In this document: one piece after another, positions 11,435 to 24,499 of the stretch
How the letters are laid out: the number at the start of each line of letters is the position of its first letter
Numbering within the stretch: the stretch's first letter is position 1
From: Emticicia agri
GTDB lineage: Bacteria > Bacteroidota > Bacteroidia > Cytophagales > Spirosomataceae
Length of the DNA: 64,000 bases
Direction: 5' to 3'
Assembly (NCBI GenBank): GCA_945860265.1
Contig: CAMAQF010000001.1
Span: 124,001-188,000, forward strand
Made by a program: the position numbers and the translations under genes
The notes under the pieces: generated by a model
The model's input: the letters and a program-made list of their open reading frames with translations, nothing else
Database searches by the model: none
What the model was told of the DNA's origin: nothing

Positions 11435-13492
11435 ATGAGACAGACAAATCCGTGGCAGCACATTTGCAAACTGCTGCTTTTTATGAGTGTATTCACACAA
11501 ACGCTTGCACAATGGCAAATTTCAGCCAAAAACTTCGACCCCAATAATTATTATGGTGTAACTGTGGCCAATGGTATGGTCGGAATTACGTCTTCACCCG
11601 ACCCACTAAAAGTAAAGGAAATTGTACTTAATGGCACTTTCGACACTTACGGTCGTGGGCGTGTTGCCAATATCATGAAGGCATTTGAATTTGCTAACAT
11701 GGAGTTAATCATTGATAATCAAATGATTAACCGAAAATATATTAGCAATTTCGTACAAACGATGTATATGCAAAATGCCATTTTTACTACTACTTTCGAT
11801 ATGGGAAGTAAGGCAGCCGTCAAATCAAATGTACTTGCACTACGCCATTTACCACATTCAGCATTGATTGAAATGGAAATCACTGCCAAACAAGATATTG
11901 AATTTACGCCCATCAGCATCATGCAAACGCCCGATATGCTGCGTGATGTACAGAATTTCTTTCATACCATCGACCGACCGCATTCACTGATTCCGTTGAT
12001 GACTTCAGTGGCAAAAACTCCTACTGGAAAACACATAATTGCAGCATCAAATTCTTTTTTGTTTGAAGAAGAACGAGGAAAAGAACCGCAGTTGATTCAT
12101 GAAGAATGGGACAATGGAATGCACCGAATGAAGTTTACGAAAAAGCTAAAAGCGGGTGAAACCTACAAATTTTCGGTAGTTGGTTCGGTCATTTCGACCG
12201 CCCACGTAAGCGACCCACACAATGAAGCCGAGCGTTTGACAATTTTTGCGGCACTCGAAAAAAGAGAGCGTTTGGTCAAAAAACACAAAGAAGCATGGGC
12301 AAAACTTTGGGAGTCAGACATCATCATTGAAGGTGACGATGAAGCTCAACGTGCGGCACGTTTTTCTTTGTATAATCCGTATTCGTTTTGTCGTGAAGGA
12401 CACGCCTATAGTCTTTCACCGATGGGTTTATCGGGTTTAGGTTATAATGGCCACGTTTTTTGGGATACTGAAATTTGGATGTTACCTCCGCTATTGGCGA
12501 TGAAACCCGAATTGGCGAAATCACTACTCGAATATCGTTTTGAGCGTTTGCAAGCAGCCAAATATAATGCCAAAGCACATGGTTATCAAGGTGCAATGTT
12601 CCCTTGGGAATCAGATGATTCGGGGCAAGAATCTACACCTGTTTGGGCATTAACGGGGCCATTTCAGCACCATATCACGGGTGATGTAGGCTTTGCTTTC
12701 TGGAAATATTATCAAGTCACGAAAGACAAAATTTGGTTAAAAGACCGAGCCTACCCGATGCTGAAAGAGGTTGCCGATTTTTGGGTGAGCCGTGTAGAGA
12801 AAGGAAATGATGGAAAATATCACATTATTAATGTTGTATGTGCTGATGAATGGGCCGAAAATGTGGACGACAACGCCTATACAAATGGAATGGCCAAAGA
12901 AGTATTAGGTTATGCAATCCAAGCCGCCAAAGAACTCGGACTACCCGAAAATCCAAAATGGAAAGAAGTTCAAGATGGACTCATAATTTTGAAATTTCCT
13001 GATGGAACAACTCGTGAACACGCATCTTATAACGGCGAGCCTATCAAGCAAGGTGATGTAAATTTACTTTCGTATCCGATGAAGCAAATCACTGACCCGC
13101 TGATCATCAAGAAGGATTTAGATTTTTATTGGAAAGTTTTAGCTGATAATCTGCCAGGAAGAAAAGGACAAAGTCCAGCAATGGCACACGGTGTTTTTTC
13201 TATTTTAAATGTTCGTTTGGGAAATACCGAAACGGCTTATAAACAATACATGGATAGTTATAAACCCAACGAAGTTCCTCCATTTGGAGTTTTGGCCGAA
13301 ACTGCTGGCGGCACAAATCCATACTTTTCGACTGGTGCAGGTGGATATTTACAAACACTCATCAACGGTTGGGGCGGACTTGATTTTACCGATGCAGGTA
13401 TTATCCAACTAAAAACAAAACTTCCAAAACATTGGAAATCATTAACATTGAAAGGTGTTGGAGTTGAGAAAAAAACTTTTATTGTGAAATAA
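11435..13492 (+). CDS. Secreted glycoside hydrolase family 65 enzyme
   Basis: 685 residues with a signal peptide (residues about 1-25, ending QTLAQ). The N-terminal beta-sandwich (about 30-270) and the (alpha/alpha)6 catalytic barrel are those of family GH65, which contains trehalases, maltose/kojibiose/trehalose phosphorylases and glucosyl-galactosyl-hydroxylysine glucosidases. GYNGHVFWDTEIWMLPPLL is the sugar-binding motif, and CADEWAENVDDNAYTN holds the catalytic Glu in the same place as the family's DE-x(3)-NV-x-N-NAYTN signature. Export suggests a hydrolase acting on external or periplasmic glucosides rather than a cytoplasmic phosphorylase. No transporter is adjacent; a terminator follows. 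Confidence 0.88.
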   Translation: MRQTNPWQHICKLLLFMSVFTQTLAQWQISAKNFDPNNYYGVTVANGMVGITSSPDPLKVKEIVLNGTFDTYGRGRVANIMKAFEFANMELIIDNQMINRKYISNFVQTMYMQNAIFTTTFDMGSKAAVKSNVLALRHLPHSALIEMEITAKQDIEFTPISIMQTPDMLRDVQNFFHTIDRPHSLIPLMTSVAKTPTGKHIIAASNSFLFEEERGKEPQLIHEEWDNGMHRMKFTKKLKAGETYKFSVVGSVISTAHVSDPHNEAERLTIFAALEKRERLVKKHKEAWAKLWESDIIIEGDDEAQRAARFSLYNPYSFCREGHAYSLSPMGLSGLGYNGHVFWDTEIWMLPPLLAMKPELAKSLLEYRFERLQAAKYNAKAHGYQGAMFPWESDDSGQESTPVWALTGPFQHHITGDVGFAFWKYYQVTKDKIWLKDRAYPMLKEVADFWVSRVEKGNDGKYHIINVVCADEWAENVDDNAYTNGMAKEVLGYAIQAAKELGLPENPKWKEVQDGLIILKFPDGTTREHASYNGEPIKQGDVNLLSYPMKQITDPLIIKKDLDFYWKVLADNLPGRKGQSPAMAHGVFSILNVRLGNTETAYKQYMDSYKPNEVPPFGVLAETAGGTNPYFSTGAGGYLQTLINGWGGLDFTDAGIIQLKTKLPKHWKSLTLKGVGVEKKTFIVK

Positions 13493-13550: not shown

Positions 13551-13614
13551 TCATAAAACCCCTGTTTGCCTTCATATTAGTAGTTTTAGTTAGGCTGAAT
13601 TCAGTCTGTTAATT

Positions 13615-13633
13615 TACCGTTCTCAGAACGGTA
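13615..13633. repeat. Short perfect hairpin next to the island border
   Basis: TACCGTTCTCAGAACGGTA is self-complementary. The same ACCGTTCTnAGAACGG core recurs inside the dispersed repeat at 18058, so this may be a detached piece of that element. Confidence 0.5.
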
Positions 13634-13670
13634 TTAAAAATAATCGTTTTGAATGATTTTTTGCTCATTC

Positions 13671-13781
13671 TCTACTGCCGTTTTAAAAACGGGAATTCCA
13701 TTGTGGCTAATACAGCGACTGATAGTTCCAATACGGTTTTAAAATCAGCGGAACTTGGTTACACTTCGACTAACTGAGTTT
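13671..13781. repeat. Dispersed palindromic repeat, copy A
   Basis: Contains TGCCGTTTTAAAAACGG, CGACTGATAGTTCCA, a run TACGGTTTTAAAATCAG, GAACTT and ACTTCGACTAACT. The same blocks in the same order occur at 18051-18130 and 20015-20122. ACTGAT/ATCAGC and the CCGTT/AACGG arms can fold back. This copy touches the 3' end of an intact CPBP gene, as copy C does. Confidence 0.7.
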
Positions 13782-14478
13782 ATACAGCTATATTTAACAT
13801 AAAAGATAGTAAATTATTTAAGATATGAATACTAACTGACCACATGAAACCAAGTTCTAATCTTATCTTCGTTAAATAATACCCTGCTATTAATTGGGGA
13901 ATAATAAGGAAAGGATATACAAATAAGATTTTAACATCTAGCGGTGTGTAGTTGGCTATGTGCATAAACCCAAATAAAGCGATAGATAGGAGTTTTGCAT
14001 AATTTAGGTTTTTACTACTAAATCTAACCATACTTTCATTGCTTATATCTTTCATAAACAACCAAAATATACCCGTAAGTACAGCTATGAAGGGAACTCT
14101 GAAAATAGACTCACAATACGTATCTAATAAACCACTGATAATGTACAACAAGAAAAAAAAACCTATTATCATATGATATTTCTTGAAACTGAGCCATAGC
14201 CGAAATGATATTTCTTCTAATATTGGCATGTGAAAACCAATAAAAAGTAATGTTTGCCACAACCCTTTTTGTTTGATGACAGCTTTTATACCTAAATTAT
14301 TTTGCCAAATAGAAACTCCATAATTACTTCTTACTAACCAATCTACCCAAATTGATAAAAAAGCCCATAAACATAGAAAAGAAATATTCATAGAATAGTA
14401 TTTAAAGGCTATTTTTGCATTAAATACTATTCTATGGAATATGTTTTTCAAGTGTATATTAAAATTAAAAAAAAACAT
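13780..14478 (-). CDS. CPBP-family intramembrane metalloprotease (CAAX-protease/bacteriocin-immunity type)
   Basis: 232 residues, six or more predicted membrane helices. All three motifs of the CPBP (Abi) family are present: EEISFR at 88-93 (EExxxR), FGFMH at 169-173 (FxxxH) and HILNN at 218-222 (HxxxN). In Gram-positive bacteria, members next to GG-leader bacteriocin genes give self-immunity (established for the family); others are CAAX-type peptidases. Here the gene starts only seven bases after the stop of a GG-leader peptide and follows a second one, so peptide immunity or peptide processing is the natural inference. It is the only intact copy of three in the island; homologues at 20137 and 20960 each carry one stop. 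Confidence 0.82.
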   Translation of the reverse strand: MFFFNFNIHLKNIFHRIVFNAKIAFKYYSMNISFLCLWAFLSIWVDWLVRSNYGVSIWQNNLGIKAVIKQKGLWQTLLFIGFHMPILEEISFRLWLSFKKYHMIIGFFFLLYIISGLLDTYCESIFRVPFIAVLTGIFWLFMKDISNESMVRFSSKNLNYAKLLSIALFGFMHIANYTPLDVKILFVYPFLIIPQLIAGYYLTKIRLELGFMWSVSIHILNNLLSFMLNIAV

Positions 14479-14484
14479 TAGTGC

Positions 14485-14694
14485 TTATTTAAGTAAATCG
14501 CCAGCTTTCGCTTGCATAACCCATGTTAATACACATTTGGCAGCACAAATAGTTGAACCAACTATTACTCCTACTGTCCAGCCCACTCTGTCAGCAATCG
14601 AACCATCCCCACCTCCATTAATTAATTCCAATTCGTTGAGAGACAATTCATTTACGTTAAAATCACTAAGATTACATTCTACTAAATTTTTCAT
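14485..14694 (-). CDS. Double-glycine leader peptide, bacteriocin-like (peptide 1)
   Basis: 69 residues from the ATG at 14694; a longer frame would need a TTG. The leader has the pattern of GG-type secretion leaders: NELSLNELELINGG (residues 18-31), with hydrophobic residues at the -4, -7 and -12 positions and cleavage expected after GG. The core is about 38 residues, GDGSIADRVGWTVGVIVGST and onward, hydrophobic, with a GxxxG motif and two cysteines (ICAAKC) that could form a disulfide. This looks like a class II bacteriocin-type peptide. It lies between peptide 2 upstream and the CPBP gene downstream on the same strand, with 7 bases to the latter, so they are probably co-transcribed and translationally coupled. 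Confidence 0.75.
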   Translation of the reverse strand: MKNLVECNLSDFNVNELSLNELELINGGGDGSIADRVGWTVGVIVGSTICAAKCVLTWVMQAKAGDLLK

Positions 14695-14762
14695 TTTAAA
14701 ATTCAATTAAATTGTTAATAAATAGTTTTTTACACTAAAGGCAAACTGTAAATATCTAAAAA

Positions 14763-14948
14763 TTAGCATTTGCAATTTTTTAATGCATCTGTTATACCCT
14801 CCCCGAAAGAGACAAAAAATGTATAAAGTGCTTTTCCCGCACTTCTAGCACTTGCATCTGAATATCCGTTAACAATTTCCCCACCATCAATAATCTTTAA
14901 CTCTTCTTGGTTCAATTCTTGTAAACCATTTAATTCCAACGTTTGCAT
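14763..14948 (-). CDS. Double-glycine leader peptide, bacteriocin-like (peptide 2)
   Basis: 61 residues. Leader QELNQEELKIIDGG (residues 10-23) aligns without gaps to the leaders of the other GG peptides here. The core of 38 residues (EIVNGYSDASARSAGKALY onward) ends in NCKC, a Cys-x-Cys terminus shared with peptide 5 at 21961 (EHCSCKINK), so the two are paralogues in matching positions of the two modules. It is the first gene of the left module and is preceded by a 140-base region that is also found before peptide 5. Confidence 0.78.
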   Translation of the reverse strand: MQTLELNGLQELNQEELKIIDGGEIVNGYSDASARSAGKALYTFFVSFGEGITDALKNCKC

Positions 14949-15085
14949 AATTTCTAAAATTTAAAAGTTAAAATTTAATACTCCAAACTTCTGCAGCTGT
15001 TTGTTGGTTCAAAAGTCATATTTAATCTTTTAATTGTCAAATTTTATTAGGACTAAATTATTCCTGTGAGGAATAATTTATGAAT
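14949..15085 (-). promoter_or_regulatory. Conserved upstream region of the left GG-peptide module
   Basis: About 137 bases upstream of peptide 2 match the region 22141-22291 upstream of peptide 5 almost throughout (shared blocks include ATTTCTAAAATTTAAAAG, AAACTTCTGCAG, TCAAAAGTCATATTTAATCT and AATTTTATTAGGACTAAA). The match ends exactly at the 18-bp direct repeat. A common promoter and 5' leader for both modules is the likely reason; I could not place a -7 box with certainty. Confidence 0.65.
15068..15085 (+). repeat. 18-bp island direct repeat R1
   Basis: GAGGAATAATTTATGAAT, first of six copies, all in the same orientation and all between 15 and 22.3 kb. Marks the outer end of the left GG-peptide upstream region. 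Confidence 0.8.
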
Positions 15086-15187
15086 GTACCATTTAAAAAT
15101 TTTTTTGCTTGGTTTAAATTAACTTTCTCCGTTTTTTTGTTTATTTGCAGTACTAACACTTTTATTCACAAAACAACCGCTGCAACA

Positions 15188-15526
15188 ATGAATAATATCA
15201 CCACAAAATTCCGAACGCTCAGCGAACTCCATAATTACAAACAAGATTACGATGCTTCCATACTTGGTATCACACAATCGGGCTACGCCAAATTATAAAA
15301 TGGTGATATTGGCAACATCAGCCTCAAATACCTTCAAAAACTCGCCGAACTTTATCAACTAAACTTAGAACAGCTTTTGGGCTAGGATGGTAAAATAAAT
15401 ATAGGAACTGTGAATGGCGTTAGGGTCAATCAAGGCACAACCCATTTGTATGCACCATCCGATGAGCGTATCAAAGAATTGGAAGAAAAAGTAGAAAATT
15501 TAATAGATGAGCTTAAAATGAATTAA
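15188..15526 (+). pseudogene. XRE-family helix-turn-helix regulator broken by two in-frame stops
   Basis: From the ATG at 15188 the frame encodes FRTLSELHNYKQDYDASILG, ITQSGYAKL, then TAA (15296-15298), then NGDIGNISLKYLQKLAELY and QLNLEQLLG, then TAG (15383-15385), then a tail with a coiled coil (ERIKELEEKVENLIDELK) to TAA at 15524. Ignoring the two stops, this is a continuous Cro/CI-type HTH protein of about 110 residues: residues where GAA (Glu) is expected are TAA. The frame is otherwise intact, so decay is recent. In its working state it may have regulated the neighbouring peptide module or the restriction-like gene downstream. Confidence 0.8.
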
Positions 15527-15620
15527 ATATCAATGTGATGGAAAAATTGACACACTAACAGATAAAAACACCTTGATTTTGCTCAAAAAAACTTATATTT
15601 GTCAATAAAACAATTAAAAA

Positions 15621-16217
15621 ATGTCGTATAGCAATTTTAGTTTGAGAGAGGTAAGAAAACGATTTAACCTTTCAGAGGAAAGGAAAACATTATTTTCTAA
15701 TACTATTGACCAAAACCCAAGCGATTGGCTACTACAAACATTAAAGTATAATGAAGATGCTGCCCTTATTAGCGATAAAGAACGTTCCGAACTTTTAGTT
15801 TCTCCGATTCTAACCGAGCTTCGCCAGCGAAACAATAAAATTTTCTCTGTTTATTCGGGTGCAAACTTAGATGCCGACGCTTCGCAGGGCTTAAACGGCG
15901 AATGTGATTTTATACTTACCAAAAGTCCACAATTAATTTCGGTCGAATCACCTATTTTTTGCTTAGTTGAAGCTAAAAAAGATGATATTATTAACGCCTT
16001 TGGGCAATGTGTAGCACAAATGCTTGGAGCAAGAATTTATAACCAAAACGATGGAAATTCCATTGATACTATCTACGGTTGTGTAACTACTGGCATCGAA
16101 TGGCAACTACTAAAACTCGAAAATAGTATTATTACGATTGACATGGAACTTTACTCGATACAAAACTTACCAACACTATTAGGAGCTTTACAGGCAGTTA
16201 TTGATGTTTATAAATGA
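15621..16217 (+). CDS. Conserved protein with a PD-(D/E)XK-nuclease-like core
   Basis: 198 residues, no signal peptide. The stretch GLNGECDFILTKSP (about 90-103) followed by VESPIFCLVEAKKDDIINA (about 108-126) has the arrangement of the PD-(D/E)xK core: an Asp in a strand and a Glu-x-Lys in the next. The rest (GQCVAQMLGARIYNQ, then IYGCVTTGIEWQLLKLE) looks like the usual strand and helix following the active site. Members of this type are found scattered in Bacteroidota and Cyanobacteria without known function; a restriction or repair nuclease is possible. The last 10 bases overlap the convergent hlyD-like gene. Function not known. Confidence 0.6.
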   Translation: MSYSNFSLREVRKRFNLSEERKTLFSNTIDQNPSDWLLQTLKYNEDAALISDKERSELLVSPILTELRQRNNKIFSVYSGANLDADASQGLNGECDFILTKSPQLISVESPIFCLVEAKKDDIINAFGQCVAQMLGARIYNQNDGNSIDTIYGCVTTGIEWQLLKLENSIITIDMELYSIQNLPTLLGALQAVIDVYK

Positions 16218-17377
16218 TTTTGCACCTTCGGATTTAGCCAATCATCGGTTTTGTCATACAATAGTTTATAAAGACTGCGTTTGGCTACTACAAATCTAGC
16301 CCAGAGCGTTAAGCCTTTTTTCAGAGGTGCAGCATAACCATTTTTGAGTTGCAGGGTTTTTTTGTCCAATTGGCATTTTACTATGAAAATCGGCTTTTCG
16401 TTGATTACCACAAAATCACGGGCGATGTCAATGATTTTACCTTGCACCAAGCCCCATTCGTTATAATTGAAAGCATCAATCTGAAAACTCACGGACATGT
16501 TTTTTCTTAAAAGTCCGATGTCGTTTGGGCTAACGTAGCACTCCGCAATGAGGCTCGAATCGGGCGAAATAATACCCAGCATTTCGCCTGTTTGCACGTA
16601 ACTGCCCTCATATTTACCCACAATTTGCTGAATATTGCCACCAATTGGGGCTTTTATTTCATAATATGTTTTCTGCTGTGTGAGTTGCTTGGCTTCACTT
16701 TGGAGTTGTTTCAAATCAAAACGATGTTTGTTTAGTTCAGCTTGCCATTGGCTCAACTGCCGCTGGAAAATTGATTCAAATTCAGCCACCAAGCGGTTCA
16801 TTTCGTATTCTTTAGCGTTGAGTTCTCGGCGAGCAATCACTTTTTCTTTATATAAATATCGGTCGGCATCTAATTCTTTCTTGATTTTCTGTTGGTGAAA
16901 GATATTTTCTTGCAATTGGCTACGAAAAGTATTGAGTTGTTGGGTATAGATGGGGGTTTGGGTAGAATGATTTCCAAAAATATTGTTTTTCCCGATTTGG
17001 GTTAGCACATCTAAATCATTGATAAAATCATTTTTTTCTTGCTTTTGAAAATCATTTGAATTGAGTTTAGTATCAATATCATCGGTAGCTACCACAAAAA
17101 GTGTACTGTTTTGCCTGACATTTTGATTCTCTGATACATTTACGGCTTTCACAGTACCCGAAATCAGCAATTTTATCTCGGTTTTTTCCGAAACTGTCCT
17201 GATGATTCCGTTGCTCTGAACCGATATGTCAATAAAAATAAAAGGTAAACTTACCAAAATACCAAAAATAGACAGTAGAATAAGAGTATAAATCAACTGA
17301 CTTCTAACCTCCACTTTGGGTAAATAAGCCTCAATGGTGCTTTGAATAATATCGGATGGAAAAAGTTGTTTTTGCAT
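16208..17377 (-). CDS. HlyD-family membrane fusion protein (peptide/bacteriocin export adaptor)
   Basis: 389 residues from the ATG at 17377 (upstream frame only opens at a TTG). One transmembrane helix near the N-terminus (about residues 25-50, IYTLILLSIFGILVSLPFIF), then a biotinyl-lipoyl half (VSGTVKAVNVSENQNV-like, here LISGTVKAVNVSENQNVRQN), a long coiled coil (about 110-240, ELNAKEYEMNRLVAEFE and KQLQSEAKQLTQQ), the second lipoyl half (IKAPIGGNIQQIVGKYEGSY) and a beta-barrel. This is the layout of adaptors that work with a C39-peptidase ABC transporter and an outer-membrane channel to cleave and export GG-leader peptides. It is the evident exporter part of this island, but no C39 ABC transporter is in the window. 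Its 5' half is duplicated at 18134-18680. Confidence 0.88.
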   Translation of the reverse strand: MQKQLFPSDIIQSTIEAYLPKVEVRSQLIYTLILLSIFGILVSLPFIFIDISVQSNGIIRTVSEKTEIKLLISGTVKAVNVSENQNVRQNSTLFVVATDDIDTKLNSNDFQKQEKNDFINDLDVLTQIGKNNIFGNHSTQTPIYTQQLNTFRSQLQENIFHQQKIKKELDADRYLYKEKVIARRELNAKEYEMNRLVAEFESIFQRQLSQWQAELNKHRFDLKQLQSEAKQLTQQKTYYEIKAPIGGNIQQIVGKYEGSYVQTGEMLGIISPDSSLIAECYVSPNDIGLLRKNMSVSFQIDAFNYNEWGLVQGKIIDIARDFVVINEKPIFIVKCQLDKKTLQLKNGYAAPLKKGLTLWARFVVAKRSLYKLLYDKTDDWLNPKVQNHL

Positions 17378-17429
17378 CGTACAAAAATGCAAAAAAAAGC
17401 GACACTCAAATACTAAAGTTTATGACTGT

Positions 17430-17447
17430 GAGGAATAATTTATGAAT
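17430..17447 (+). repeat. 18-bp island direct repeat R2
   Basis: GAGGAATAATTTATGAAT, left border of the HicAB cassette; its last T starts the -33 TTTG of the promoter. Confidence 0.8.
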
Positions 17448-17478
17448 TTGGAGAAGCATCGAAATTAATTTATATTTG
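17447..17478 (+). promoter_or_regulatory. Bacteroidota-type promoter of the hicAB module
   Basis: TTTG at 17447-17450 and TATATTTG at 17471-17478 are separated by 20 bases, an exact fit to TTTG-N19/21-TAnnTTTG. An identical promoter precedes the second toxin-antitoxin module (18750-18781). Confidence 0.75.
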
Positions 17479-17540
17479 CTAAAAATAAATAGGTCAGTAT
17501 TAGGCAGAAGTTGTAGCCCCAAGATGTAAAATAGGTAAAA

Positions 17541-17804
17541 ATGAGTAAAACAGATAAATTGATTTTAAAAGTACTGACGGGAAATGCTGATAATAATTTT
17601 CCGATGGACGAATTAAAGCGTTTACTTTTTATTTTAGGTTTTTTGGAAAGAAAGGGTGCAGGAAGCCATACCTTATACAAAAAAGAAGGTATTACAGACC
17701 TCATAAACATACAAAACTCAAAAGGAGGGAAGGCAAAACCTTATCAAGTTAGACAAATAAGAGAAATTATACTTAAATACAAACTTACACAAGATGAAAT
17801 ATGA
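17541..17804 (+). CDS. hicA: HicA-family mRNA interferase toxin
   Basis: 87 residues. The double-stranded-RNA-binding-like fold of HicA is recognisable: LKRLLFILGFLERKGAGSHTLYKKEG with the catalytic histidine at residue 43 (GSHTLY), and a C-terminal helix. The family cleaves mRNA and is held in check by HicB. It overlaps the hicB-like gene by 11 bases, the normal hicAB order, and has its own promoter copy upstream. It is about 20 residues longer than the shortest HicA proteins but typical for this subgroup. Sure of the pair, less of whether it is active. Confidence 0.85.
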   Translation: MSKTDKLILKVLTGNADNNFPMDELKRLLFILGFLERKGAGSHTLYKKEGITDLINIQNSKGGKAKPYQVRQIREIILKYKLTQDEI

Positions 17805-18000
17805 AGTAATAATATATTGGAGTAATGAAGACGATTGCTTTATTGCCGAAGTACCAGAACTCAAATCATTGATGGCACACGGCGAAACGCATCAAGAAGC
17901 CTTAACTAACGCCCAAGAGGCTATTAATTTGTGGCTTGAAGTAGCAAAAGTAGATGGTATTCTTATTCCTCAACCAAAAGGAAAGCTAATGTATGCTTAA
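17794..18000 (+). CDS. hicB: HicB-family antitoxin
   Basis: 68 residues with the degraded-RNase-H HicB fold: YEVIIYWSNEDDCFIAEVPELKSLMAHGETHQEALTNAQEAI is the signature stretch (first strand pair, then the GxTxxEAL helix). It is the short form that lacks a C-terminal DNA-binding domain, so autoregulation may depend on another factor. Translation starts inside hicA, which couples the two. The next feature is the 18-bp repeat R3. Confidence 0.87.
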   Translation: MKYEVIIYWSNEDDCFIAEVPELKSLMAHGETHQEALTNAQEAINLWLEVAKVDGILIPQPKGKLMYA

Positions 18001-18015
18001 TTATTTTATGAATTT

Positions 18016-18033
18016 GAGGAATAATTTATGAAT
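18016..18033 (+). repeat. 18-bp island direct repeat R3
   Basis: GAGGAATAATTTATGAAT, right border of the HicAB cassette. It belongs to a longer 29-base block (18003-18031) that is repeated at 19428-19456 after the second toxin gene. Confidence 0.8.
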
Positions 18034-18050
18034 TGGAAGATTGCATTTTC

Positions 18051-18130
18051 TCTACTGCCGTTCTGAGAACGGCTAACACAACGACTGATTTAAAAATCAG
18101 CCGAACTTACAGAACACTTCGGCTAACGGG
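18051..18130. repeat. Dispersed palindromic repeat, copy B
   Basis: Begins TCTACTGCCGTTCTGAGAACGG, then CGACTGAT, AAAAATCAGCCGAACTT and ACACTTCGGCTAAC. It ends in a run of G at the point where the duplicated hlyD fragment begins, so it marks a recombination junction. Shorter than copies A and C. Confidence 0.7.
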
Positions 18131-18680
18131 GGGGAGCAATCACTTTTTCTTTATATAAATATCGGTCGGCATCTAATTCTTTCTTGATTTTCTGTTGGTG
18201 AAAGATATTTTCTTGCAATTGGCTACGAAAGGTATTAAGTTGTTGGGCATAGATGGGGGTTTGGGTATAATGATTTCCAAAAATATTATTTTTCCCGATT
18301 TGAGTAAGTACATCTAAATCATTGACAAAATCATTTTTTTCTTGTTTTTGGAAATCATTTGCATTGAGTTTTGTATCAATATCATCGGTAGCCACCACAA
18401 AAAGTGTACTGTTTTGCGTGACATTTTGATTCTCCGATACATTTACGGCTTTCACAGTACCCGAAATCAACGATTTTATCTCGGTTTTTTCCGAAACTGT
18501 CCTGATGATTCCGTTGCATTGCACCGAAATGTCAATAAAAATAAAAGGTAAACTTACCAAAATACCAAAAATTGACAGTAGAATAAGTGTATAAATCAAC
18601 TGACTTCTAACCGCCACTTTGGGTAAATAAGCCTCAACGGTGCTTTGAATAATATCGGATGGAAAAAGTTGTTTTTGCAT
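18123..18680 (-). pseudogene. Truncated second copy of the HlyD-like adaptor
   Basis: Starts at the ATG at 18680 and matches the first about 180 residues of the adaptor at 16208-17377: membrane helix, first lipoyl half and the beginning of the coiled coil. The match stops after LYKEKVIA; only PPR and a stop follow, read from the junction with repeat copy B. The second half of the coiled coil, second lipoyl half and barrel are missing, so it cannot work as an adaptor alone. Confidence 0.9.
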
Positions 18681-18732
18681 GCTACAAAAATGCAAAAAAA
18701 AGCGACACTCAAATACTAAAGTTTATGACTGT

Positions 18733-18750
18733 GAGGAATAATTTATGAAT
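18733..18750 (+). repeat. 18-bp island direct repeat R4
   Basis: GAGGAATAATTTATGAAT, left border of the PIN cassette. Confidence 0.8.
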
Positions 18751-18781
18751 TTGTAGAAGCATCGAAATTAATTTATATTTG
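18750..18781 (+). promoter_or_regulatory. Bacteroidota-type promoter of the PIN toxin-antitoxin module
   Basis: TTTG at 18750-18753, 20 bases, TATATTTG at 18774-18781. Differs from the hicAB promoter by one base in the spacer. Confidence 0.75.
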
Positions 18782-18799
18782 CTAAAAATAAATAGACCA

Positions 18800-19036
18800 A
18801 TGACAACATTAATATTGGAAGTAAATACGGAGCAAAAGAAAGCTTTGAAAGGTATTTTGAAATATTTGAAAGTGAGTTTTCAAGAGCATAAGCTTAAGAA
18901 AATCAATGCCCGTGATTTTGCACAAAAGATTGATTATGGCATTCATCCAAATAAAGAAATTGATGCCAAACCATTCTCGAATATCGAAAGTAGTGCTGAT
19001 TATGTACGCAAACTCCGTACTGAAGAATGGAAATAA
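18800..19036 (+). CDS. Putative antitoxin of a PIN toxin pair
   Basis: 78 residues from the ATG at 18800; earlier codons of the frame would need a TTG inside the promoter region. It starts MTTLILEVNTEQKKALKGIL, a strand followed by a helix as in small antitoxins that bind DNA as dimers, and ends in a charged tail (SADYVRKLRTEEWK) typical of toxin-neutralising C-termini. It overlaps the PIN toxin gene by 10 bases. The family name is not certain from sequence; position and size are the main argument. Confidence 0.7.
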   Translation: MTTLILEVNTEQKKALKGILKYLKVSFQEHKLKKINARDFAQKIDYGIHPNKEIDAKPFSNIESSADYVRKLRTEEWK

Positions 19037-19413
19037 TCTTGGTTGATACTTGTATCTTGATTGACTATACTCGCCGAAAGCCAGAAGTTGTCGATTTTAT
19101 TGAACAAATTGGTAAAGACAATCTTTGTATTAATTCTATCATCGAAATGGAACTATTACAGGGTGCATTGAACGGCAAAGAACTCGAAAAAATTAAGAAA
19201 GATTTGCAACAATTTTTACTATTGCCCATTCAGCAAGAAATCATGAAAGATGCTACACAACTACTTTCTGCCTATAAACTATCTCACCAAGCCAAAATAC
19301 CCGATATGATTATTGCGGCTACGGCACGTTTCTACGAAATCGAATTACGCTCTTACAATCTCAAAGATTTTCGTTTTGTACATAATTTGAAGGTGAGTAG
19401 CGAACTGTTATGA
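19027..19413 (+). CDS. PIN-domain ribonuclease toxin, VapC-like
   Basis: 128 residues, the normal VapC size. The four acidic positions of the PIN active site can be placed: Asp7 in ILVDTCILIDY, Glu42 in IIEMELLQG, Asp93 in AKIPDMIIAATA and Asp114 in YNLKDFRFV. VapC toxins cut tRNA or rRNA and bind Mg2+ through these residues. Its start lies inside the antitoxin gene, so the two are translated together. The 29-base block with repeat R5 follows 14 bases after the stop. Confidence 0.88.
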   Translation: MEIILVDTCILIDYTRRKPEVVDFIEQIGKDNLCINSIIEMELLQGALNGKELEKIKKDLQQFLLLPIQQEIMKDATQLLSAYKLSHQAKIPDMIIAATARFYEIELRSYNLKDFRFVHNLKVSSELL

Positions 19414-19440
19414 AGCAAACAATACCTATTTTATGAATTT

Positions 19441-19458
19441 GAGGAATAATTTATGAGT
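19441..19458 (+). repeat. 18-bp island direct repeat R5
   Basis: GAGGAATAATTTATGAGT, one mismatch to the others; right border of the PIN cassette. Confidence 0.75.
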
Positions 19459-19459
19459 G

Positions 19460-19853
19460 TTACTTTCTCCTAATTGGCTGAAAGTAAAACTCTTCGTTAT
19501 AAATATAAACGATTTCTTTCAAGGCTCGATTGGCGGGGCGATGGAAAAATCCAGCATTGATTGCAGCTGCAGCACTAATACCCGCAAAAGACCAGTTAAT
19601 TTTTGGATTTGGACCGAACTCATCTTCTACCGTCAAAACTAAATCCTGCGACAGCAGTAAAGAATTCGGCAGAATGTTTCCGCCAGATATATTTTTTGTA
19701 GGCTTTCATGAGTTCTTGGGACTTTTGTTTTTCAAGAATCTTTTTTAATTCTCGTGGTCGTTTAATTACTTCATCGTTTAACGAAACTATGCCATTTTTA
19801 ACGTAAGTCATTTGTTGGGCTTGGCTATTGACCGTTATCAAGAATAAATAACT
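19460..19853 (-). pseudogene. Exported protein of unknown function, broken by a frameshift and lacking its start
   Basis: The 5' part reads SYLFLITVNSQAQ (a signal-peptide core, but with a stop before any ATG) and continues through NDEVIKRPRELKKILEKQKS and AEFFTAVAGFSFDGRR to a stop. Just before that stop the adjacent frame takes over with VEDEFGPNPKINWSFAGIS, AAAAINAGFFHRPANRA and ends EEFYFQPIRRK at 19460. Together they make one small exported protein with one frameshift near 19630. I do not recognise the family. Its 3' end abuts repeat R5. Confidence 0.65.
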
Positions 19854-20014
19854 GTTAATCTAATCAGTGTCATTAGGAAATATTTTTCACTTCTACAAAA
19901 ATGAGATTGAATCAATTTAAGATTGCATAAGAGTTTGAAGGTTTCTTAACGAAAAAGATAAAATCTTGAAATAATAATGTTAGTTTTCTCATTTTGTGAT
20001 GGATTTGCTTCAAA

Positions 20015-20122
20015 TTGCCATTTTGAAAACGGTTAAAAGTTCCACTGCGGCAACTCGACTGATAGCTCCACTACGGTTTAAAAATCAGATGAACTTATGA
20101 AAAACTTCGCCTAACTAGGTTT
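20015..20122. repeat. Dispersed palindromic repeat, copy C
   Basis: Blocks TGCCATTTTGAAAACGG, TCGACTGATAGCTCCACTAC, GGTTTAAAAATCAG, GAACTTATG and ACTTCGCCTAACT follow the same order as copy A. Lies 15 bases beyond the 3' end of the second broken CPBP gene, mirroring the place of copy A next to the intact one. Confidence 0.7.
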
Positions 20123-20136
20123 AAAACAACGAAATT

Positions 20137-20745
20137 TCAGGAATAACTAAAAAGAAACCCAAAGATTAATAGCCAAAAATTATGCAAAATGTGTAATAAA
20201 ATTGAAAACTTTAATCCATATATTACTCTTATATAGCCAAGCATTAATCCCCCAAAAAATATCGGGGTCAAAATGAGACAACAGTTTAAAATTAGGTAAT
20301 CGTCAAAGTCAAACTTGAAAATATGAATTAATGAGAAAACAACTGAAGAAAAATAATGTGCAACTTTAATTTTTTTTGAATCATAGTATAAGAATAATGG
20401 AAACCTAAAAATAAATTCTTCAATTACTGGAGATAGGAGTAACCCAAAAAATAGGGTGGATAATGAATATGCTTAATTAGAGGATTTATTTATAGGAAAT
20501 CTATTGAACCCTGAAACAACACTTAAATAAATTAGACCTAAAAAAACAAACGTGACAATAATAATAAAAATGAAATAGAATAAAATATCTGAGAGGTTAT
20601 CTTTAAAACTTTTGAGGTTAGTTTTAAAAGTAGGCTGTTTCAAAAACAAGAGAAATGTTTTTAGAAGTACAGTAAACTTTAAACTGAATATTGTAAAATC
20701 CCAAACTGCTAAAAGTTTGGGATTTTTTTCCTGTTTTTCAATCAT
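20137..20745 (-). pseudogene. CPBP-family membrane protease with one in-frame TAA (copy 2)
   Basis: 203 codons from the ATG at 20745 to the TGA at 20137-20139 stay in one frame apart from a TAA at 20473-20475 (codon 91). All family motifs lie after the stop and are intact: EEFIFR, FSLIH and HILHN. The N-terminal 90 residues contain two or three membrane helices and no catalytic residue. The start ATG overlaps the TGA of the upstream peptide (ATGA), as in a coupled operon. Either a recent nonsense mutation or a position read through; the former is simpler. Confidence 0.85.
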
Positions 20746-20985
20746 CTAATTCCACCGTGGTTTGATGAACTCATTATATCATGATAGGCTCCTGACCAGC
20801 CTTTATTTCCAACTACCTCGTCCGTTTTTCCCCAGGCATACTTGACTGCTTCCCAAGCGATAGCCCACCAAAAATCACTACCTGGCTTTGGTTGTCCACC
20901 ATCAGTTATGACCTCCCTCAATAAGTAATTGTTCTCCAGAAGTCATCTCAACTAGTAAATTAAAATAATGTAGTGAAATTATCAA
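20742..20985 (-). pseudogene. GG-leader bacteriocin-like peptide with a frameshift (peptide 3)
   Basis: One frame gives the leader NLLVEMTSGEQLLIEGG (matching the ELxxEELxxIxGG pattern of the other leaders without gaps) and then a stop two codons later. The neighbouring frame gives the core: DGGQPKPGSDFWWAIAWE, AVKYAWGKTDEVVGNKGW, SGAYHDIMSSSNHGGIR, ending in a TGA that overlaps the start of the CPBP gene. Leader and core are thus one gene split by a frameshift just after the GG site. The core start QPKPGSD resembles QAPGGDK of peptide 4. No ATG is seen; a TTG at 20985 is the best start. Confidence 0.65.
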
Positions 20986-21649
20986 TACAAAATACTACTG
21001 TATTGTAAAGGCTATGCTGTAAAATACACCATATCATACCATATTTTAACCTAATATAACCAAATAGAAAACCACAGATTGTTTGTGGTATAAATAATAC
21101 GGGAAGTATCCACAGGTTATCCAAAGGGTAAAGACTAAAATTAGTTAAATGAATAGCTCCAAAAATTAATGTAATGAAATATAAAAGATAGGTATAATTA
21201 TTATGTCAAAATTTTACTAATTTCTCTGGTAAATCCATAAATTTAAAAACAAGCATGAGTATTAAAATAATGACAAAAATTGTAATATCAAAATAAATGA
21301 TGGTTTTGTTGAGTAATAGAACAGTGCAAACAATAAATATACAAATTAAAAAATAATAAGACCACTTGGCTTTTTGAAGCGGAAATCTAAATACAATCTC
21401 TTCAATAATAGGAGCAAATATCAGTGAAAAGAATATTTTTGTTTCTGTACTTGTGTGAGTATAAGTATTGGCTGGAATATAATTTTTGTTGATAAATAGG
21501 AAACAAAAAAATGGAAATATCAAAATAAAATTTAAAGTCAATAATAAAAGCATGTGTAATAATTTAGTTTTAAATAATAAAACTTTATCATTTACAGTTG
21601 TAAATGGTTTCTTGCAAAACAAAATTAAATCGCTTATCAGCTCTATCAT
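20960..21649 (-). pseudogene. CPBP-family membrane protease with one in-frame TGA (copy 1)
   Basis: 230 codons from the ATG at 21649 to the TAA at 20960-20962 keep one frame except a TGA at 21206-21208 (codon 148). EEIVFR (EExxxR) lies before the stop; FGAIH (FxxxH) and HSLYN (HxxxN) lie after it, so the truncated 147-residue product would lack two of three metal-site motifs. Full length would be 229 residues, close to the 232 of the intact homologue at 13780. It follows peptide 4 by about 50 bases and was presumably its immunity or processing partner. Confidence 0.85.
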
Positions 21650-21702
21650 AACCTTTTATTAAATTATCGAGAAAACAATGCTTGTCTTCTCAATAAAATT
21701 CA

Positions 21703-21900
21703 TCAAAAAGAGGAAGGCTTATTCATAAAATTTGACATAGATGAATCCCATTTCCCAGCAACCCAGTTTTCAGCTACTGCAATTCCGCAGCCAAACAAAT
21801 TTCCAACGTTATACTTATCACCACCAGGAGCTTGTCCACCATTTTTGAAAACCAATTCTTCAAATGATAATTCTTCTAAACCTACTATTTTATTTTCCAT
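21703..21900 (-). CDS. Double-glycine leader peptide, bacteriocin-like (peptide 4)
   Basis: 65 residues. Leader MENKIVGLEELSFEELVFKNGG (EEL-SFEEL-VFKNGG) fits the GG consensus of its neighbours; cleavage after residue 22 would release a 43-residue core that starts QAPGGDKYNVGNLFGCGIAV and ends NKPSSF, glycine-rich with one cysteine. Lies between peptide 5 upstream and a CPBP gene downstream on the same strand. Likely a secreted class II-type peptide. Confidence 0.78.
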   Translation of the reverse strand: MENKIVGLEELSFEELVFKNGGQAPGGDKYNVGNLFGCGIAVAENWVAGKWDSSMSNFMNKPSSF

Positions 21901-21960
21901 TACAGATACTTTATTTATGTTTTACAAAATTCTTTTAAAAAACAACTCAGCTAAGTAATT

Positions 21961-22140
21961 TTACTTATTAATTTTACAACTACAATGTTCGTAACCTTGC
22001 AAAATATCTTTAAAAGCTTCTTTGATTTCAGTATATATGAAATTTATACTAAAAGATGGGAAAAGTCCCCCATCAACACTCACCAACTCAGTTGAATCCA
22101 TTTCAACCGTACCATAATTTTCTAACACTAAACTTTGCAT
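21961..22140 (-). CDS. Double-glycine leader peptide, bacteriocin-like (peptide 5)
   Basis: 59 residues, read directly from the sequence. Leader MQSLVLENYGTVEMDSTELV-SVDGG; the core of 34 residues is LFPSFSINFIYTEIKEAFKD and then ILQGYEHCSCKINK. Start MQ-L-L-N and the Cys-x-Cys near the C-terminus match peptide 2 (MQTLELNG, NCKC), and both are the first gene of their module with the same upstream region. Very probably paralogues. Confidence 0.75.
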   Translation of the reverse strand: MQSLVLENYGTVEMDSTELVSVDGGLFPSFSINFIYTEIKEAFKDILQGYEHCSCKINK

Positions 22141-22291
22141 AATTTCTAAAATTTAAAAGTTAAAATTTAAAACTACAAACTTCTGCAGCAGACTATGCGT
22201 CCCAATTTGTTACTTCAAAAGTCATATTTAATCTTTAAATTGTTAAATTTTATTAGGACTAAAATATGACTATAAGGAATAATTTATGAAT
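22141..22291 (-). promoter_or_regulatory. Conserved upstream region of the right GG-peptide module
   Basis: Homologous to 14949-15085 (see there), with a short insertion near 22195. Its outer end is repeat R6. Probable promoter and 5' leader of peptide 5. Confidence 0.65.
22274..22291 (+). repeat. 18-bp island direct repeat R6
   Basis: AAGGAATAATTTATGAAT, first base differs; outermost right copy and the island border next to the ppiD-like terminator. Confidence 0.75.
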
Positions 22292-22360: not shown

Positions 22361-24499
22361 TCAGAAGAATTTAGCTCTGTTATCTTTGATATTTGCATTG
22401 TCACGGATAGCTTGATTTGCCATGTACGAAGCACCATACCCTCCATTACGTTGTGTGATTTGGTTTTTGTACTGTGTATAATCAGCAATTTCAGGAGCTT
22501 TTACAAGTTTTGTTGTTTCGACTACAAATACACCGTTTTCACCAACGAACGGTTTAGAACGTTTACCAGTTTGTAAACCGAAGATTTTTCCAATTGCTAT
22601 CGGGTCGATCCCTGGAGATGTCAACATTCCTGCCATTAGGTTAATTTCAGTTGCAGTTTCAACCAAAGCACCGGCACCATATTTTTGAGCTGCTTGCTCT
22701 AAAGGACCAGAAGGAGTTCCAAGTTTTTTCAAGATTTGCTCTGCTTTCACTTCATTACGGACTTTAGCAGTAATCGCATCTTTAAAATCATCTGCTTTAG
22801 GGCTATCTTTTTCAGTTTTAGCAGTTACAGCCGCAATGATAAAATTATCACCCACTTCAAATACACGGTCAGAAACTTCGCCCACACTTGTATCATTATT
22901 AAATGCCCATAACACAACTTCACGAGCATTTTGGATAGTATTGAATGTAGATGCTTCTGGGAAAATCTTATCGGCTTTCAAGATAAACAATTTACCATCT
23001 TTCTTAACTGCCGCTTCAAATGCATCTCTAGAATTATTACTTGCACGCAATGTTTCGGCTTTTTGATAAATTGCATTTCTTGTACTTTCGCTCGCTTGCA
23101 ATTCACGGCTGATGGTAGCAATTTTATACTTAGTGTTTGATTTTCCTTCAGTTACTTTAATAATGTGGAAACCAAAGTCTGTTTCAACTACGTTAGGTAC
23201 TAAACCAACACCACCCATTGCAAAAACCGCAGATTCAAATGGTTTTACCATCGCACCGTTATTTTTGAATGTGCCTAAATCTCCACCTTGTTGAGCCGAA
23301 CCATCTTGGCTGTTTGCACGAGCCAATGTAGCGAAATCAGCTCCTTGATTTAATTGACTTAATATATCTTGTGCTTTAGCACGAGCAATTACTTTTACCG
23401 AATCTGGAGCCGTTTTATCGGCACGGATTAAGATATGACTTGCACGAGCAGAGTAAAGTGAGTCAATAGCATTACCTTCATATTTGTAAATCGAATAAGT
23501 ATTGTCTTCTTTGAATGGCCCAATCACTGCACCTTGAATGGCGGTAGATAAAGCAACTTTTAATGTAGGCGTCAATTCGTTGGCACTACGCTCATAAGGC
23601 ACACGGCTATCTGAGTTAAGAGCAGCATAAGCTTTCGCATCTTTAGCAGCAGCTAAACCTTTGGCAAAACTCTTGATGTCTTCATATAAAGCTGCACTAT
23701 CATCTTTGGTTGGCATTACTTGATACACCACGTAATCAAGTGAGCGGCTATCGTAACCTTTATATTCTTTTTTGTGCTTACTCAAATAATCTGACAATTG
23801 GCTATCGGTAACTTTGATAGTGGTGTCGATTATACTTGTGAAAGGTACATATAAATAACGGGCATCTGCTTTGGTCGCTGTTGCATCGTACTCTCTTTTT
23901 GCTTCGTCACCTGTTATAAATGACGATGAAGAAAGCAAAGCGTTATATTTCTCCAACAAACGTTGTTGAATTGCCTGTTCTTTAATTTGGTCCCAAGCTG
24001 CTTTTTGTGGAGCAGGCAATTGATTGGCAGCGGCAGCATTGATAAATTCAATGTGACGATTACGATCATACTGTCCAGTTTGTGGGTCAGTAAATTGTTG
24101 TTTAATGATTGGGCTAAGGGTTTTAGTACCTTGAACCATCTCACGAAGCTCATCTGGTGTAACTTTCAAACCGAGTTTCTCGAATTCAGTTTTATAAGTA
24201 ATGTCAAAAATCATTTGTTCCCAAACTTGGCTGCGTAATTGCTGAATTTCTTGCTCTTGCAAAGCTCTTCCAGCTTGTTGCTCATAATTAGCACGAGCTA
24301 CATCTAATTTTACTTGAAATGCTTGGTAGTCAATACTGGTACCTGCGATTTCACCAATTTTATTATCATTACTACTAAACAAGCCACTTTTACCATTTCC
24401 TCCGAATAAATCTCCTCCGACAATGAATAAAATGAGTGCAACTGCGATAACTACGACTGCAACACCTGAACGCTCACGAATTTTGTTTATTAAAGCCAT
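22361..24499 (-). CDS. Membrane-anchored periplasmic foldase, PpiD/SurA-like peptidyl-prolyl isomerase
   Basis: 712 residues. MALINKIRERSGVAVVVIAVALILFIVGGDLF is an N-terminal signal anchor as in PpiD. A SurA/PpiD N-terminal chaperone domain (about 40-230, ending in the GDEAKREYDATATKADARY region), then a parvulin domain (about 345-440: SARASHILIRADKTAPDS, GADFATLARANSQDGSAQQG, GDLGTFKNNGAMVKPFESAV and FGFHIIKV), then a degenerate second isomerase-like region. The family assists folding of exported and outer-membrane proteins at the periplasmic face of the inner membrane. It is divergent from gldB across a 368-base gap. Confidence 0.9.
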   Translation of the reverse strand: MALINKIRERSGVAVVVIAVALILFIVGGDLFGGNGKSGLFSSNDNKIGEIAGTSIDYQAFQVKLDVARANYEQQAGRALQEQEIQQLRSQVWEQMIFDITYKTEFEKLGLKVTPDELREMVQGTKTLSPIIKQQFTDPQTGQYDRNRHIEFINAAAANQLPAPQKAAWDQIKEQAIQQRLLEKYNALLSSSSFITGDEAKREYDATATKADARYLYVPFTSIIDTTIKVTDSQLSDYLSKHKKEYKGYDSRSLDYVVYQVMPTKDDSAALYEDIKSFAKGLAAAKDAKAYAALNSDSRVPYERSANELTPTLKVALSTAIQGAVIGPFKEDNTYSIYKYEGNAIDSLYSARASHILIRADKTAPDSVKVIARAKAQDILSQLNQGADFATLARANSQDGSAQQGGDLGTFKNNGAMVKPFESAVFAMGGVGLVPNVVETDFGFHIIKVTEGKSNTKYKIATISRELQASESTRNAIYQKAETLRASNNSRDAFEAAVKKDGKLFILKADKIFPEASTFNTIQNAREVVLWAFNNDTSVGEVSDRVFEVGDNFIIAAVTAKTEKDSPKADDFKDAITAKVRNEVKAEQILKKLGTPSGPLEQAAQKYGAGALVETATEINLMAGMLTSPGIDPIAIGKIFGLQTGKRSKPFVGENGVFVVETTKLVKAPEIADYTQYKNQITQRNGGYGASYMANQAIRDNANIKDNRAKFF

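Follow-up and report, generated by a model that had tools for sequence, protein, structure and literature searches.

Plantaricins EF and JK of Lactiplantibacillus, two class IIb bacteriocins, are each encoded by two adjacent genes for precursor peptides with a double-glycine (GG) leader, followed by one gene for a CPBP-family membrane protein, PlnI and PlnL respectively. In lactobacilli plnEFI is found together with an exporter, and class IIb loci are controlled by a peptide-pheromone two-component system. According to a review, the immunity proteins of sakacin 23K, plantaricin EF and plantaricin JK, which are SkkI, PlnI and PlnL respectively, share homology with the Abi family (PMC8538875), and GxxxG motifs are described for many class IIb bacteriocins (PMC5380434). 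In this work we analysed a stretch of 64,000 nucleotides from Emticicia agri (Bacteroidota), hereafter the window, which contains an island of GG-leader peptide genes, CPBP genes and hlyD genes, all on the minus strand, between a SurA/PPIase gene (22361–24499) and a GH65-type gene (11435–13492). Comparison with its relatives leads us to favour, with moderate confidence, the view that loci of this family are of the bacteriocin type, specifying a membrane-active toxin pair together with a protease that gives immunity. In the window a single complete unit has survived, and the remainder of the island is in decay.

The locus resembles class IIb systems in its neighbouring genes for two GG precursors, with a single CPBP gene behind them, in the C39 peptidase-ABC transporter (C39-ABC) and HlyD-family accessory protein encoded by relatives of the window locus, and in its GxxxG motifs. 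It is unlike them in its Bacteroidota host, which has an outer membrane to cross, in peptide cores that in the window pass no curated model, are near-neutral and, for one member of each pair, have a CxC at the C-terminus, and in its regulatory parts, an XRE gene and a short repeated site called element E. Since no window peptide passes a curated model and a strict GxxxG stands in one peptide of each window pair, we do not file this set as a member of class IIb, only as working like one. Bacteroidetocins of Bacteroides share with it the phylum, a GG leader and a C39-type ABC exporter, but each is a single class IIa-like peptide of 42 amino acids (AA) with four cysteines and a leader of 15–16 AA, accompanied by a thiol oxidoreductase and a partner with five transmembrane segments, and the authors found no immunity protein (PMC6671954). 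The window locus has instead pairs of peptides, leaders of 22–32 AA, cores with one or two cysteines, and a CPBP; the short leader and the cysteine pairs of bacteroidetocins are not found in it. The Cdz system of Caulobacter (CdzC/CdzD/CdzI) is a Gram-negative two-protein bacteriocin that is exported by type I secretion, has glycine zippers and a leader with G[G/A/S] at its end, and comes with an inner-membrane immunity protein; CdzI is a small transmembrane protein, glycine and small hydrophobic residues make up 75% of CdzC and CdzD, and CdzC aggregates on the cell surface (PMC5380434). The window locus has a similar plan, that of a putative Gram-negative two-peptide toxin with a GG-type leader, whereas its cores, compared by eye, are mixed in composition rather than Cdz-like, and the partner is a CPBP in place of CdzI. 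Finally, the nap island of Neisseria gonorrhoeae combines GG peptides, a LagD-like exporter, a membrane immunity-like protein and a small DNA-binding peptide; unlike the parts of the window locus, NapI resembles LagC, and the Nap peptides are cationic and act in autolysis (PMC11798529). Going by the available descriptions of bacteroidetocins, Cdz and nap, none of the three pairs its peptides with a CPBP.

To detect GG peptides we used a matrix built from 30 leaders, all of them taken from other genera. Among the 323 short open reading frames (ORFs) of the window, four scored at least 12 bits (29.3, 26.6, 23.8 and 21.3 bits), and these are the genes that we call pepA', pepB, pepA and pepB', respectively. 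The maximum in 60 dinucleotide-preserving shuffles was 11.8 bits, and no short ORF of at least 13 bits was present in 61 kb of other sequence from the same genome (L006–L009) or in the window outside 13–23 kb. The four genes stand side by side in two pairs. In the left unit, pepA (14763–14948) encodes a peptide of 61 AA with the leader MQTLELNGLQELNQEELKIIDGG and a 38-AA core ending in NCKC, pepB (14485–14706) a peptide whose 41-AA core carries a tandem GxxxG (GWTVGVIVG) and CAAKC, and the next gene, after a gap of 7 bp, an intact CPBP-type (Rce1/Abi-like) intramembrane protease of 232 AA (13780–14478). The right unit consists of pepA' (21961–22140; 34-AA core with HCSC near its end), pepB' (21703–21900; 43-AA core with GNLFG), a CPBP gene (20960–21649) broken by one in-frame TGA at about 21207, a third peptide gene (approximately 20742–20950) in which the core is out of frame with the leader, and another CPBP gene (20137–20745) with one in-frame TAA at about 20474, the homolog of which is intact at locus L035 (6869–7477). 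Between the two modules lies an intact gene for the HlyD-family membrane fusion protein (16208–17392; PF13437, 48.3 bits for a cut-off of 22.2), which likely starts 15 bp inside the listed ORF. A preliminary description of this DNA had proposed that both modules contain a GG peptide with a Cys-x-Cys end, a second GG peptide and a CPBP, with an extra peptide–CPBP pair on the right. The two peptides are indeed there in both modules. The CPBP of the left module is intact, but both right-hand genes contain an in-frame stop, and the extra pair, although both its genes are present, is a frame-split peptide with an interrupted CPBP. With the sequence as it stands, the right module would not work.

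The cores of such peptides are rich in GxxxG. In 37 CPBP-linked cores, pairs of glycines at spacing 4 occur 36 times, against 15.4 ± 3.5 in shuffled cores, with no excess at spacings 1–3 or 5–7; two of these cores are from the window, some rows are related to one another and two ORFs overlap, the right-module cores being excluded by the distance rule and cores outside 18–70 AA dropped (39 to 37). Eight cores from a draw of genomes across the phylum (sample 3, below) have 12 such pairs against 3.6 when shuffled, and all eight carry GxxxG. The search of Cytophagales genomes suggested in the preliminary description did recover the same module elsewhere, for example at L103, L173 and L175. Locus L103 (genome G016) repeats the left-module plan, with a peptide ending in NCAC, a peptide with a CxxKC stretch, a CPBP, HlyD and C39-ABC, and its pepB passes the class IIb model TIGR03949 (22.0 bits, cut-off 21.5); a peptide of L035 falls just short of it (21.2), and one of L086 matches the lactococcin G-beta model with an E value of 6e-4, under the cut-off.

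The left CPBP matches NF052640 (E 4.5e-10, 39.8 bits, cut-off 220) and PF02517 (E 0.002, 18.8 bits, cut-off 22.4); as the PF02517 score lies under the cut-off, we regard the protein as a divergent relative of the CPBP/Abi family. Residues P85, E88, E89, R93, F169, H173, G199, H218 and N222 are invariant in all 21 rows of alignment A2, and F169, H173, H218 and N222 are conserved in at least 90% of the 25 rows of alignment A1, one of which is shortened at the C-terminus (A2 is A1 without two rows of L005, one of L103 and the shortened row of L040). We take E88 E89 R93, F169 H173 and H218 N222 to be the EExxxR, FxxxH and HxxxN positions of this protease family. The predicted model of the protein (pLDDT 89.8) is all helical, with ten helices. 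Alignment by hhalign with a canonical PF02517 protein from L035 places the FGxxH and HxxxN stretches opposite each other (E 5e-4, but at a probability of only 31%), and a profile search of solved structures gave no result. In a tree of 43 CPBPs the window row is on a long branch and its placement is unsure; rows linked to peptides or exporters and unlinked rows are clustered (4 label changes, against 10.8 in 500 shuffles), with 9 of the 12 unlinked rows in one clade, although the unlinked L178 pairs with the linked L175 and the bootstrap is not settled.

The nearest named locus belongs to an Emticicia sp. metagenome-assembled genome, in which the hlyD product is 94% identical to that of the window; in genome G006 of the same genus the identity is 91%, and the gene was found in 2 of the 11 genus genomes searched, the window genome included. 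Among 61 loci found by HlyD similarity (sample 1), a C39-ABC is encoded on the same strand in 55, at most 200 bp away in 52; of the remaining six, four encode an ABC of this family in which no C39 motif was recognised, and two lack an ABC. A GG peptide of at least 13 bits is present in 42 of the 61 loci, a CPBP of the window family in 12 and both in 11, which supports the proposed association of GG peptides with CPBP and HlyD. The genes of G006 run in the order PPIase, hlyD, a divergent XRE gene, a peptide gene, a gene for a 641-AA protein, a gene for a 287-AA canonical CAAX protein, C39-ABC and a GH65-type gene, so that the exporter stands between the peptides and the GH65-type gene. The same succession of hlyD, XRE, peptides, 287-AA gene and C39-ABC is found in L035, where extra modules stand in front of hlyD and the exporter is 2.6 kb behind it. 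The C39-ABC and the 287-AA CAAX gene, present in both relatives, are absent among the ORFs of the window island. Elsewhere in the window genome there are four C39 matches, one of them with stops. The one on contig C53 is a C39-ABC that falls in the clade of the exporters of this HlyD group and is 74% identical to the exporter of the G006 island; it starts at the contig end, where its partner is out of sight. With the local exporter gone, export would need another one, such as that on C53. The assembly consists of 174 contigs at 90% completeness, and missing genes thus prove little.

The peptide pair with one CPBP is not particular to the window. In 61 genomes of the family to which the window genome belongs (sample 2), the CPBP profile matched in 16, the window genome included, and among 17 regions outside the latter, five contain an ABC or GG peptides. 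Sample 3 comprised 392 genomes of the phylum and was the source of no training leaders. The CPBP matched at an E value of 1e-25 or better in 15 of them, again counting the window genome, and of 15 regions outside it, four have two GG peptides directly upstream (two of these regions being near-copies), one has a single doubtful GG peptide and 10 have none inside the flank; these counts are lower bounds because seven candidates were scored per genome, with 1.5-kb flanks. Among 59 intact CPBP genes of the A1 family, 18 have a GG peptide gene on the same strand at most 700 bp upstream: two peptides in 12 cases, three in two and one in four (several of these loci also supplied training leaders, the pair of L083 includes a leader fused to a helix–turn–helix (HTH) protein, and the samples of loci and genomes may overlap). 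The unit here is two peptides and one CPBP, and elsewhere a CPBP that accompanies GG peptides mostly has a pair. The idea that each peptide has its own CPBP does not hold as a rule, since 14 of the 18 genes follow two or three peptides, although four follow one and the C6 locus of the window genome speaks for it. This locus (L005, on contig C6 of G000) is a second peptide-export locus, with C39-ABC, HlyD, two CPBP genes and two peptides with an MKRLSLEELK leader, a kind of leader that is among those missed by our matrix. It also encodes several proteins of 373–388 AA, two of which were scanned and had no Pfam or NCBIfam match.

Element E is a 17-bp sequence, TCATAAATTATTCCTCA, of which a pattern search found six island copies with at most one mismatch, all at 15.07–22.29 kb and on the minus strand. 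Copies lie upstream of pepA (15067–15083), of hlyD (17429–17445), of a truncated second hlyD copy (18732–18748) and, with one mismatch, of pepA' (22273–22289). The two others are just past the 3' ends of a HicAB-like cassette (18015–18031), where the flank resembles the copy at the exporter gene by eye only, and of a VapBC-like cassette (19440–19456), where 47 bp match the exporter-gene copy at 94% in L035 and 91% in G006. In both of these relatives, element E also precedes the C39-ABC gene, and a copy separates the XRE gene from the peptide gene that comes next. A genome-wide search, made with a 19-base pattern on the other strand, gave eight other matches, all with three mismatches, and the reversed-pattern control gave five, so that element E was rejected as a genome-wide dispersed repeat. 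The single dispersed repeat described initially turned out to be two separate things, the island-specific element E and an intergenic repeat (13600–13779, 18041–18130, 19950–20115) that lies behind both CPBP ends and behind the truncated hlyD and has partial copies elsewhere in the genome. We read element E as a putative control site common to the genes of a peptide-export regulon, and also as the likely place of module exchange.

The approximately 150 bp before the first peptide are 90% identical in the left and right units (repeats D3 and D4), in keeping with the common upstream leader region reported before, and the left front is 97% identical to the fronts of two L035 peptide genes. The front as a whole, element E with about 135 nucleotides (nt) behind it, is 85–97% identical between the window and L035 and 76–81% between the window and G006. 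DNA identity of the fronts ends about 10–30 nt into the first peptide gene. Duplication of a whole module was rejected on this ground and because the left CPBP and the first right-hand CPBP share 29% of their residues over positions 77–228. As cores and CPBPs differ behind like fronts, exchange behind a shared front fits better than duplication. Expansion by duplication, as proposed at the outset, thus applies to the promoter/leader front and to hlyD, but not to the cores and the CPBPs. The second hlyD copy (18123–18695) is truncated, is 94% identical to the first over residues 1–188 and, from the DNA matches, was duplicated along with its upstream element. The HicAB-like (17541–18000) and VapBC-like (18779–19413) gene pairs are on the plus strand, and each of them is flanked on both sides by element E and stands before an hlyD copy; L035 has the same VapBC-like cassette between copies of element E, before a different gene, that of a GG peptide.

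What is intact in the window is the left unit (pepA, pepB and CPBP), the right peptide pair and one HlyD gene. In addition to the broken genes of the right unit, the gene for an XRE-type regulator (15080–15498, plus strand, divergent from pepA) is a pseudogene with two in-frame stops, whereas it is intact in L035, where the HTH_3 match has an E value of 1.8e-13, and in G006. Recoding of stop codons as the cause of the broken genes was rejected, because the stops comprise TGA, TAA and TAG, and because the second CPBP and the XRE gene are intact in L035, as is the XRE gene in G006. A 139-AA gene that is intact in L035 (7755–8174) is frameshifted in the window (19456–19841), a further sign of decay. 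The third peptide gene appears to be frameshifted in L035 too, at another place.

In the model that we favour, each working unit would make two GG precursor peptides and one CPBP membrane protease. The C39-ABC would cut the peptides after the GG and export them through the HlyD adaptor and an outer-membrane channel, and the mature pair, with its helices held against each other by GxxxG, would work jointly in the inner membrane of closely related cells, with pore formation and killing as the supposed outcome. The producing cell may in turn be shielded by the CPBP in its membrane, probably through cleavage or binding of the two peptides. The genes would probably be expressed in concert by way of element E, with the divergent XRE regulator as a possible agent. 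That L035 retains an intact CPBP gene behind an apparently frameshifted peptide gene, as expected of orphan immunity, leans towards immunity as the role of the CPBP. Several observations weigh against the model. With respect to the peptides, every window peptide scores under every curated cut-off (at best 18.1 against 21.5 for TIGR03949), core charges of 0 to +1 are low for a bacteriocin, and a strict GxxxG is found in pepB and pepB' and in neither pepA nor pepA'; the four window cores by themselves, a number too small to reveal it, show no enrichment of the motif (3 against 1.6), and the eight-core sample has a weaker rise at spacing 6 as well (7 against 3.3; 133 of 4000 shuffles were as high). 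With respect to the protease, Foldseek and VIA, applied to the left CPBP model, gave no CAAX protease among the matches listed, which tells nothing either way and which we set on this side. In sample 2, 12 of the 17 regions have neither ABC nor GG peptides, and 41 of the 59 CPBP genes lack a GG peptide within 700 bp upstream, which indicates that the CPBP family has more than one use. At HlyD/C39 loci, conversely, 31 of the 42 with leaders do not have this CPBP. Leaders without their partners had been named as grounds for abandoning the module; with leaders lacking the CPBP and CPBPs lacking leaders, the module is better seen as one kind of locus than as an obligatory trio. Finally, inspection of the C6 locus by eye gives a single GG-type peptide for each CPBP and not two, which slightly lowered our confidence in the bacteriocin-type reading.

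The C6 arrangement would also suit peptide signalling, in which the peptides are pheromones and the CPBP processes them or helps to export them, with no role in immunity. SilX, a CPBP of Streptococcus anginosus, provides both a precedent for this and a further point against immunity, as it acts in bacteriocin production, and is needed for bacteriocin activity, via the signal peptide, and a deletion mutant was not sensitive (PMC9298176). The XRE gene beside the peptides in G006 and L035 also fits signalling, as do small HTH proteins with a GG-leader-like stretch, several of which are encoded directly before CPBP or GG-peptide genes. We nevertheless consider signalling unlikely: pairs of peptides with GxxxG-rich cores suit membrane insertion better than the part of pheromones, leader cleavage is already supplied by the C39 domain, and no histidine kinase was noticed among the ORFs of the island loci, in which no dedicated search for one was made. 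A bacteriocin-type origin is compatible with the proposal that in this strain the locus is a dead remnant, with no export and a left unit that has merely not yet been mutated. The two stops of the XRE gene, the stop in each right-hand CPBP gene, the frameshifted third peptide, the truncated hlyD copy and an island without the exporter and the 287-AA CAAX gene of G006 and L035 make this a serious contender, to which we would still give somewhat less than even weight, since the frames of the left pepA, pepB and CPBP and of HlyD are full and a C39-ABC of the same clade exists on C53, albeit at a contig end in a fragmentary assembly.

Two further explanations are less probable. The peptides might be directed at the producer itself, as in the gonococcal nap island, which has like parts in a Gram-negative bacterium and whose Naps had no detectable antimicrobial activity. 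NapI is said there to resemble LagC and not a CPBP (PMC11798529), and in our loci the front is common but the cores behind it change from module to module and from one close relative to the next, a pattern more in keeping with competition than with a programme inside the cell. Self-directed autolysis is very improbable. Slighter still are the chances that the CPBP is unrelated to the peptides and has a role in the cell envelope. Its nearest named model is indeed NF052640, the M949_0222 family, and a CPBP gene of Riemerella anatipestifer, M949_RS01035, is reported to be involved in lipopolysaccharide synthesis (PMC6142336), M949_0222 not being established as the same gene. Against such a role, the match to NF052640 stands at 39.8 bits for a cut-off of 220, and linked and unlinked CPBPs cluster apart on the tree, with the reservations given above about L178 and the bootstrap.

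More tentatively, and with more doubt than confidence, the bacteriocin-type reading can be extended to a Gram-negative counterpart of plantaricins EF and JK across the Bacteroidota. This would be made of recombining cassettes of a peptide pair and its protease immunity, in which cores and CPBPs are exchanged behind a shared front, so that relatives would differ in toxin and immunity type; elsewhere, GG-tailed HTH regulators may tie export to expression. GG peptides of Gram-negative bacteria were reportedly surveyed by Dirix in 2004. GG or class II-like peptides in these bacteria are not new, one survey counting Bacteroides among its sources (PMC7494827). In the literature that we searched, outside which most subscription papers fall, there was no description of GG-peptide pairs with a CPBP in Bacteroidota, and the available parts of PMC9200625, PMC11879956 and PMC5524665 contain nothing on CPBP pairs. 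With a two-peptide toxin and protease immunity, the Bacteroidota would gain a class of bacteriocins described mainly in Gram-positive bacteria, and the CPBP would be a ready selection marker. Such loci can be searched for as two GG peptides, the nearer of which ends about 0–350 bp before a membrane protease with EExxxR and HxxxN, and the system would offer a test of whether CPBP immunity acts by proteolysis.

Between hlyD and the XRE pseudogene, an ORF of 198 AA (15621–16217, plus strand) has no Pfam or NCBIfam match; its EAKKDD stretch is reminiscent of restriction-type nucleases. Rfam and tRNA scans of the window gave no result. Small winged-HTH proteins with a GG-leader-like stretch are encoded at L040 (5408–5752), L041 (1080–1412), L042 (5543–5857) and L083 (8228–8548), and also at L200, L203, L204 and L223. 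In most of them this stretch is C-terminal and followed by a short tail, and in L083 and its copy L201 (30.8 bits) it is N-terminal. Searching the order (41 of 192 genomes matched) yielded 30 HTH proteins in 30 loci, three of which score at least 13 bits, with L204 and L223 at 12–13. Several of the GG-tailed HTH genes, in Dyadobacter and at other loci, directly precede GG-peptide or CPBP genes, and such a protein, an unusual case of a regulator that resembles an export precursor, could be a fusion of a regulator and a pheromone.

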